Assembly (NCBI GenBank): GCA_016869045.1 | Contig: VGFC01000006.1 | Coordinates: 1-49,131, forward strand | Direction of reading: 5' to 3' | From: Armatimonadota bacterium | Lineage (GTDB): Bacteria; Armatimonadota; Zipacnadia; Zipacnadales; VGFC01 | DNA: 49,131 nucleotides | Shown: piece after piece, positions 1 through 27,732 of the stretch | How positions within the stretch are numbered: the first letter of the stretch is position 1 | How the letters are laid out: each line of letters starts with the position of its first letter | The notes under the pieces: generated by a model | Databases searched by the model: none | Seen by the model: the letters and a program-made list of their open reading frames with translations, nothing else | What the model was told of the DNA's origin: nothing | Made by a program: the position numbers and the translations under genes

Positions 1-552
1 CTCGGCAGGCAGAGCGCGCCCGTCGCCCAGTAGCCGCTCGATCTCCTCCACCAGCGCCTTGTCCTCGTCAGGCACCACGACCGGCTGCCTCCGCGTCGGC
101 CCCGGTCCGATGCCGCCCGTGCTCGCAGCCGCGCCGCCACCACCCCGGCCCATCTTGGTGACCGGCTCCGCCCGTGGGAACTGCTGCCGGAAGGCGGCCA
201 GCCACTGCCGCGCCAGGCCGCTGACGCTGCTGCCGGTGCCGGCCGCATCGCCGGGCCGTACTTGCACCAGGAACGTGCCGCCGATGTAGATCGCCGGCAG
301 CCCGCCCATCGACTTCGTCCACATCCTCGGGTTCCCCACGTTCTCCACCGACAGGGCTTCCACCACGTTCTTCTCCACCGCCGACCCGCGCTCCGACACG
401 CTGCCATATCCCCCGGCGTCACGCAGCCGGCAAACCAGCTTGTTGGCGAGGATCACGTCGTAGTAGTCCCCGGCGAGCACCGGGCCCACGATGGCGACGG
501 TCAGAGCGAACAGCGCGCCGGCTCTCAGTGTGCTGCGAGTGAGTGGTGTCAT
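1..552 (-). CDS. Secreted protein of unknown function, truncated by the window edge
   Basis: The frame is open from an ATG at 552 to the left edge with no stop, so only the first 184 codons are visible. Residues 1-27 form a classical Sec signal peptide (basic n-region, hydrophobic FALTVAIVGPVLAG core). The mature part begins DYYDVILANKLVCRLRD and contains a block ending LPAIYIGGTFLVQV; a Gly/Ala/Pro-rich low-complexity linker follows at about residues 135-165. I do not recognise the family. A GGGGGAAG ribosome site precedes the ATG. The upstream region carries a CRP-type palindrome at 640-655 and a TACTACTG palindrome at 597-614. The same pair lies upstream of the unrelated small secreted gene at 27214, so the two genes are probably co-regulated (inference). 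Confidence 0.75.
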   Translation of the reverse strand, partial: MTPLTRSTLRAGALFALTVAIVGPVLAGDYYDVILANKLVCRLRDAGGYGSVSERGSAVEKNVVEALSVENVGNPRMWTKSMGGLPAIYIGGTFLVQVRPGDAAGTGSSVSGLARQWLAAFRQQFPRAEPVTKMGRGGGGAAASTGGIGPGPTRRQPVVVPDEDKALVEEIERLLGDGRALPAE

Positions 553-596: not shown

Positions 597-614
597 TACT
601 ACTGTGGATAGTAG
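597..614 (-). promoter_or_regulatory. TACTACTG-N4-TAGTAG operator-like palindrome
   Basis: The plus strand reads TACTACTGTGGATAGTAG, with CTACT/AGTAG arms at 599-603 and 610-614. It closely matches the palindrome at 27162-27183 (TACTACTG followed by N4 and TAGTAG). On the minus strand a possible -10, TACTAT (613..608), lies inside it, so a bound protein would block transcription of the gene starting at 552. It resembles BlaI/MecI-type operators in half-site sequence, but the half-sites are further apart, so I do not name the regulator. Confidence 0.6.
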
Positions 615-639
615 ACCATCCACACGACCGGAGGTTTCT

Positions 640-655
640 TGTGACGGCGCTCACA
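640..655 (-). promoter_or_regulatory. CRP/FNR-type binding site (TGTGA-N6-TCACA)
   Basis: TGTGACGGCGCTCACA is a perfect match to the CRP-family consensus palindrome with 6-bp spacing. Its centre (647.5) is 41 bp from the centre of the TACTACTG palindrome and about 95 bp upstream of the start codon at 552. The only other copy I found, at 27120-27135, is in the same context. Confidence 0.65.
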
Positions 656-27119: not shown

Positions 27120-27135
27120 TGTGACGTCCGTCACA
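27120..27135 (+). promoter_or_regulatory. CRP/FNR-type binding site (TGTGA-N6-TCACA)
   Basis: TGTGACGTCCGTCACA is a perfect CRP-family palindrome, with 7-bp arms around a 2-nt centre. Its centre (27127.5) lies about 41.5 bp before the start point predicted from the TATAAT at 27157-27162. That is the standard class II activator position, and it would explain the absence of a good -35 hexamer. Confidence 0.7.
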
Positions 27136-27139
27136 GAAC

Positions 27140-27183
27140 TACTACTGCCGATAGGGTATAATTACTACTGACGGTAGTAGTAA
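27140..27183 (+). promoter_or_regulatory. TATAAT promoter flanked by two TACTACTG operator-like sites
   Basis: A consensus -10 TATAAT sits at 27157-27162. On its left, TACTACTGCCGATAG (27140-27154) is a half-conserved site. On its right, TTACTACT-GACGGT-AGTAGTAA (27162-27183) is a perfect inverted repeat with 8-bp arms that would cover the transcription start. The two sites are 23 bp apart, about two helical turns. A third copy lies upstream of the gene at 552. A repressor bound here would compete with RNA polymerase. Confidence 0.65.
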
Positions 27184-27213
27184 ATCCTGAGTCGGCGATC
27201 GGAGGAGATCACC

Positions 27214-27732
27214 ATGTTCAAGACCCGAGGCATGACCATGATGTTGGTGGCTGTGATGCTGTTCGGAGTCGTCTCGATCGCCGCAGCGCGCGACTGGGAC
27301 CAGTTCTACAACCAGCGTCCCAACTACCAGGGGATGTTCACCAACCGAGAGGCCTGGAGTGCGACCATCGTGGGGTTTGGGCCCGAGTGGTTCGAGGTCC
27401 AGCGCTATGGAGAGGTCATCAGGCTTCGACTGAGGGAAGGCAACCCCCGGTTGTACGTGGGGCAGCGGGTGCGGATCGTCCCGTTCGCGAGAGATGGTGA
27501 AGCGGAGATCGCAGAGCTGCGACTGCCGGACCAGGACTTCCGACCGGTTGGCATCGTGCGGTACATCGAGCGGTTCGTGCCGAAGGAGGGGCCGCACTAC
27601 TGGCGCGGAGACCACGGCCAGCCTCGCTGGGGCATCCGCATCGAGACGGGCCCACGGCCCGGGTATCGGCCGCCCACGGGCTACCGCCAGCCGCCCGCCT
27701 TCCGGCACGGCCACTGGGAGTATCGCAGGTAG
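27214..27732 (+). CDS. Small secreted protein with a Pro/Tyr/Arg-rich tail
   Basis: A 172-residue protein with a Sec signal (MFKTRGMTMMLVAVMLFGVVSIAAA, residues 1-25; shortened core MMLVAVMLFGVVSIAAA). The mature domain has alternating strands typical of a small beta-barrel or OB/SH3-like module: WSATIVGFGPEWFEVQRYG, VIRLRLREGNPRLYVGQRV and AEIAELRLPDQDF. The last 40 residues are rich in Pro, Gly, Tyr and Arg (PGYRPPTGYRQPPAFRHG), a pattern seen in envelope-associated proteins. GGAGGAG precedes the ATG. The upstream CRP-type and TACTACTG sites are shared with the gene at 1-552. I do not recognise a named family. Confidence 0.75.
   Translation: MFKTRGMTMMLVAVMLFGVVSIAAARDWDQFYNQRPNYQGMFTNREAWSATIVGFGPEWFEVQRYGEVIRLRLREGNPRLYVGQRVRIVPFARDGEAEIAELRLPDQDFRPVGIVRYIERFVPKEGPHYWRGDHGQPRWGIRIETGPRPGYRPPTGYRQPPAFRHGHWEYRR

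Follow-up and report, generated by a model that had tools for sequence, protein, structure and literature searches.

The window analysed here, 49,131 nucleotides that make up the entire contig C6 of an Armatimonadota assembly (G000; 7.87 Mb, 723 contigs), contains two genes, starting at 552 on the minus strand and at 27214 on the plus strand, whose promoters carry the same two palindromes. Which regulators do these palindromes serve, and do they act together? A first-pass annotation had described two perfect TGTGA-N6-TCACA sites, each followed 41-45 bp further towards the gene by a second palindrome. We found both pairs exact and in place: the window has no exact TGTGA-N6-TCACA sites besides TGTGACGGCGCTCACA (640-655) and TGTGACGTCCGTCACA (27120-27135), and no exact copies of TACTACTG-N4-TAGTAG besides TACTACTGTGGATAGTAG (597-614) and TACTACTGACGGTAGTAG (27163-27180). 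The centres of the two elements are 42.5 and 43.5 bp apart, with the second element on the gene side in both promoters, in line with the offset described. The form given for the second motif had to be revised, since its recurrence genome-wide is better captured by TACTAY-N5-RTAGTA.

First, we compared these counts with those expected by chance. Across 400 first-order Markov simulations of the window, exact TGTGA-N6-TCACA sites had a mean of 0.015 and exact TACTAYN5RTAGTA a mean of 0, against two observed for each; with up to three mismatches, TACTACTG-N4-TAGTAG gave six matches in the window against 0.24 expected. Genome-wide, where the reversed motif was scanned alongside each motif as a control, TGTGA-N6-TCACA occurs at 17 exact places (reversed, 0) and TACTAY-N5-RTAGTA at nine (reversed, 1), plus a few one-mismatch copies. 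With the phylum-wide counts given below, a chance origin of the palindromes is ruled out. The two promoters share a genuine two-part layout, predicted to consist of a CRP-type activator site and a BlaI-type repressor operator.

At the plus-strand promoter, the centre of the CRP-type palindrome (27120..27135) lies 32 bp from that of a perfect -10 hexamer, TATAAT (27157..27162), that is at about -41.5, and the operator TACTACTGACGGTAGTAGTA (27163..27182) spans about -6 to +14, covering +1. A ribosome-binding site, GGAGGAG (27201..27207), precedes the gene (27214..27732), and no good -35 hexamer was seen at this promoter. A class II CRP site is found at about -41.5, 32 bp from the -10 centre, and such a site next to a TATAAT that lacks a -35 hexamer is what activator promoters usually show. 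As read from the letters, the geometry of 27120-27182 is that of a textbook class II promoter, with a predicted CRP site at -41.5, TATAAT and an operator placed over +1. A degenerate copy of the operator with three mismatches, TACTACTGCCGATAGGG (27140..27156), is found 23 bp before the main one. The sister genome, G001, retains the whole CRP-TATAAT-operator block with an identical spacing of 43.5 bp (ATCACAGAACTACTACAGGCGATAGGGTATAATTACTACAGATAGTAGTA): the CRP site reads TGTGATGTTCATCACT on the other strand, TATAAT is kept, the degenerate operator reads TACTACAGGCGATAGGG, and the main operator keeps its arms with a different core (TACTACAGATAGTAGTA). The gene encodes an exported protein of 172 aa whose one orthologue, at 64% identity, is that of the sister genome. 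A small beta-sheet domain is predicted for it in a low-confidence model, with which a fold search gave no useful match.

On the minus strand, the operator reads TACTATCCACAGTAGTA along the gene (597..613; one of the nine exact copies in the genome) and includes a candidate -10 hexamer, TACTAT (608..613). The centre of the CRP-type palindrome (640..655; one of the 17 exact sites) is 37 bp from that of the candidate hexamer, compared to the canonical 32. We found no orthologous copy of this promoter in the sister genome and no conservation of it among 19 homologue loci; conservation of the palindromes upstream of orthologues was seen for the gene at 27214 in the sister genome and not found for the gene at 552. 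Both genes encode exported proteins, as first annotated, but the one at 552 (1..552, 5' 184 codons, no Pfam family) runs off the contig. Because the last ~300 bp of contig C144 overlap window positions 1-300 and encode residues 85-184 with 99% identity, C144 adjoins the window contig and the gene runs on there, to give a protein of ~265 aa. Its homologues (26-43% identity) are spread across the order. The predicted structure contains a confident domain, and a fold search returned no PDB match below E 0.35. The predicted structures of the two window proteins thus offer a functional lead for neither.

To which regulator does TACTAY-N5-RTAGTA belong? Most genomes of the order carry 3-10 copies of the motif, against 0-2 for the reversed control, and one other family of the class has as many; nearly all the remaining phylum has none (0), and the control stayed within 0-4 in every genome. 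Two BlaI-family genes (Penicillinase_R, PF03965) are present in G000, on C11 and C27. The C11 blaI (PF03965, E 7e-26) is followed by a gene for an M56/M48-type metalloprotease with HExxH (PF05569, 1.7e-8; PF01435, 7e-10), and the operator upstream of it overlaps a TTGATA -35 hexamer, the promoter reading TACTAGGGTTGATAGTA..TATACT. With at most one mismatch, the operator lies upstream of blaI at 29 of 30 loci of relatives, the remaining locus being cut by a contig end, and at 20 of 20 testable loci in named Armatimonadota, whose genomes overlap the 30-locus set; an M56-type HExxH frame follows blaI at 19 of 21 loci. In this BlaI comparison the nearest named relative is the MAG 'Armatimonadetes bacterium K_DeepCast_150m_m2_147' (85% identity), and further genomes from the order carry the label Candidatus Zipacnadia or WS1. 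At least three operators per genome were found in 30 of the 31 genomes with a C11-type BlaI and in 1 of the 15 without (Fisher p = 9e-10). Further afield, an exact operator also precedes blaI at seven loci (Polyangia, Myxococcota, Bacillota and other bacteria). These operators before blaI, the co-occurrence with blaI, the distant loci and the architecture of 6-bp arms around a 5-nt core lead us to assign the palindrome to BlaI, and we predict with high confidence that TACTAY-N5-RTAGTA is the autoregulatory operator of a C11-type BlaI/MecI-family repressor. The first-pass annotation had proposed a separate repressor, left unnamed, with a BlaI- or MarR-like gene carrying the same operator as the candidate to look for; a separate repressor operator is supported, the repressor can now be named as BlaI, and a BlaI-family gene with that operator upstream is found in G000 and across the order. 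A MarR-like regulator was set aside once BlaI autoregulation had been found.

The second BlaI-BlaR pair, on C27 (L057 8070-10495), has its own operator, TACTATATATATAGTA (TACTAT-N4-ATAGTA, with a 4-bp core), directly after a TTGACA/TATAGT promoter, and its M56 partner bears carboxypeptidase regulatory-like repeats. This pair could share sites with the C11 protein, and one N5 operator lies ~4 kb from it, so that the C27 paralogue, or both proteins, might be the main occupant of the N5 operators and the C11 protein not the principal regulator. We regard this as improbable: the C27 blaI has a 4-bp-core site of its own, whereas the N5 operator fronts the C11-type blaI across the order and operator number follows the C11-type gene. 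The C11 protein is thus retained as the predicted repressor.

The target list consists of the ~12 operator promoters of G000, assigned by sequence. Besides the two window genes and blaI-M56 itself, they precede genes for related small exported proteins (C3 and C189, family GDLGKILGALAVGYVTYEVLD), a lipoprotein (C35), a type IV pilin-like protein (C27), two paralogous exported proteins (C301 and C391) and an ECF sigma factor with a zf-HC2 anti-sigma (C39); in two further cases (C43 and C371), tandem operators are followed by a short stretch ending in a terminator-like hairpin. The targets are mostly small exported, lipo- or pilin-like proteins, which agrees with the small envelope or stress regulon first suggested, and none of the target proteins scanned against Pfam matched a beta-lactamase or a penicillin-binding protein family. 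In addition to the one at 27163, the operators on C3, C11, C27, C35, C43, C189 and C391 have orthologous counterparts in the sister genome, where no ECF-sigma orthologue with the same promoter was found. Members of family GDLGKILGALAVGYVTYEVLD also come with their own operator in other taxonomic families of the order. In about ten other genomes from many genera, an operator of the form TACTATTGACARTAGTA holds a -35 TTGACA with 17 bp to the -10 (TATAAT, TATACT or similar), and the gene behind such a promoter usually encodes a small exported protein, in many cases one bearing a YRGYFDG-type motif.

The tandem operators are 25 bp apart (C43:22721-22762, L060 5722-5763; C371:3981-4022, L065; and C152 of G001, L247 1793). 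At all three places they overlap the -35 and -10, with a short noncoding stretch and a GC hairpin behind. These stretches are possibly BlaI-repressed small RNAs or leaders; an Rfam scan of them gave no match.

The other palindrome had been ascribed to a CRP/FNR-family activator, a view strengthened both by the excess of the motif over chance and by a strong CRP homologue in the genome. This gene, C406, is the only one in G000 with a strong Crp-type HTH match (E 1.3e-17), alongside weaker matches. Its recognition helix, SRETLTRVL, is E. coli-like (RETxxR), its nucleotide pocket reads GEPRSATV, and its closest PDB relatives are mycobacterial CRP, with E. coli CRP lower in the list. Beyond the window contig, 12 of the 13 exact CRP sites examined fall outside predicted genes. 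A repeated block, TGTGATCNNCATCACATT ... GTAACAAGTATAT, follows the exact CRP site at C121:2952, C211:11402 and C254:8225, similar CRP sites occur at C224, C230 and C284, and the whole may be a multi-copy CRP-site element. Another exact site (C189:4542, L061) precedes a short secreted-protein gene with LNLIWEPEPPPPPPP-type proline-rich repeats and lies 2.5 kb from a BlaI operator.

Then, we asked how often the two palindromes occur together. First, a CRP palindrome with at most one mismatch lies within 75 bp of the operator at 4 of the 12 operator promoters of G000, compared to a background of 0.55%. Second, in the sister genome the same was seen at 2 of 13 operators, and at 4 of 13 when two mismatches were allowed (background 2.2%). 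Third, when all 320 five-base arms with two G/C were ranked upstream of the remaining operators, the two discovery sites and their orthologue having been removed against circularity, TGTGA headed the list (6 of 22 promoters), ahead of runners-up with 3. The genome scan nevertheless showed that the motifs are not obligatorily linked, as no more than a few of the 17 exact CRP sites lie near an operator, and in 39 other genomes of the order the pairing was absent at the pattern used. Together, the proximity counts, the arm ranking and the 39-genome scan indicate that the pairing is genuine yet partial and, with the pattern searched for, does not extend beyond the genus. As predicted from sequence, the operator regulon is order-wide and the CRP pairing is genus-level.

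Taking these observations together, we consider it likely that both window promoters belong to a BlaI-family regulon of envelope genes that CRP activates and BlaI represses. A dimer of the C11 BlaI would bind TACTAY-N5-RTAGTA, often at two operators ~23-25 bp apart, and would block RNA polymerase at the -35, the -10 or +1. The CRP homologue would use TGTGA-N6-TCACA at some operator promoters of this genus, and at 27120 its site would take the class II activator position instead of a -35 hexamer. The output logic would be 'CRP active AND BlaI released', and the genes induced would be those for small exported and envelope proteins and probably the ECF sigma factor with its anti-sigma. The signals would probably be a nutritional cue and an envelope stress sensed via the metalloprotease, the latter suggested by the presence of an ECF sigma factor and of exported proteins among the products. 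A beta-lactam is unlikely to be the signal, or at least the sole one, given that the protease lacks a penicillin-binding domain and that no beta-lactamase is among the targets. Binding, the signals and the role of the exported proteins are inferred from these sequence features, as is the direction of control, for which activation by CRP, repression by BlaI and relief through the metalloprotease would be the simplest reading. More tentatively, and with somewhat less than even confidence, the order-wide BlaI-M56 system without a beta-lactam sensor might be an envelope-homeostasis switch for small exported proteins which, in one genus, has become rewired as an AND-NOT gate with CRP and also feeds an ECF sigma/anti-sigma cascade.

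The logic of control could also differ, with CRP acting as a repressor or anti-activator, or with another Crp/Fnr paralogue as the ligand-sensing partner. Control direction is invisible in sequence, weaker Crp-type HTH matches exist, and the distance from the CRP site to the candidate -10 is non-canonical both at 640 and at the ECF-sigma promoter on C39, which makes the activation mechanism at these two promoters uncertain. At C189 and its sister orthologue, a conserved CRP-like site is 52-53 bp from the -10 centre, which is a class I distance. We nonetheless find another logic unlikely, given the activator-type arrangement at 27120 (class II spacing, TATAAT, no -35) and C406 as the only strong Crp HTH match. 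Least probable of all is that CRP runs a separate regulon whose sites beside BlaI operators are coincidental or non-functional: most exact CRP sites have no operator nearby, most operators have no CRP site and the pairing is not conserved beyond the genus, but the excess over background, the first rank of TGTGA after removal of the discovery sites, and the spacing and class II geometry kept in the sister genome all speak against it.

We therefore return to activation by CRP and repression by BlaI as the preferred reading, and compare it with known systems. BlaI-M56 pairs are widespread, and to our knowledge their signals and targets are mostly unknown outside beta-lactam resistance. Here, strong phylogenetic footprints make it possible to reconstruct a regulon in an uncultured lineage, to list its targets, to define its operator and to point to a protease partner that has no sensor domain; the CRP sites added at genus level offer a clear example in which to study the gain of a second input by a repressor regulon. 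Among open-licence papers, none turned up that describes co-control by BlaI and CRP, and searching for the operator letters gave no match. As in Staphylococcus BlaI/MecI and BlaR1/MecR1 (PDB 1sd4, 1okr), a winged-helix repressor gene adjoins an M56-type metalloprotease gene, and a palindromic operator over the promoter with autoregulation is predicted here; in contrast, the partner on C11 (339 aa) matched only peptidase families in a profile search, with no penicillin-sensor domain, and the targets are exported proteins instead of beta-lactamase. The closest solved structure to the C11 BlaI is Mycobacterium tuberculosis BlaI Rv1846c (PDB 2g9w, E 3e-11), a protein that regulates genes beyond beta-lactamase (PMC12565901), with targets that differ from those here. 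BlaI_0696 of Clostridium thermocellum has an experimentally derived inverted repeat with 6-bp arms (GTCTAT) 5 nt apart, autoregulation, and paired operators for four protomers, and its regulon comprises three operons (PMC8457756). The predicted system shares the 6-bp arms and 5-nt core, the autoregulation and, sometimes, the two operators, but its arms are TACTAY and it has ~12 promoters, compared to three operons there and no CRP co-control reported in the section consulted. The CRP half resembles E. coli class II promoters and M. tuberculosis CRP in TGTGA-N6-TCACA, the RETxxR helix and the -41.5 site at 27120, and departs from them in being combined with a BlaI operator at +1. Both regulator types and the kind of operator are already known; a BlaI regulon of exported proteins that spans an order, has a partner lacking the sensor domain and is coupled to CRP in one genus appears to be undescribed in the open-licence literature searched.
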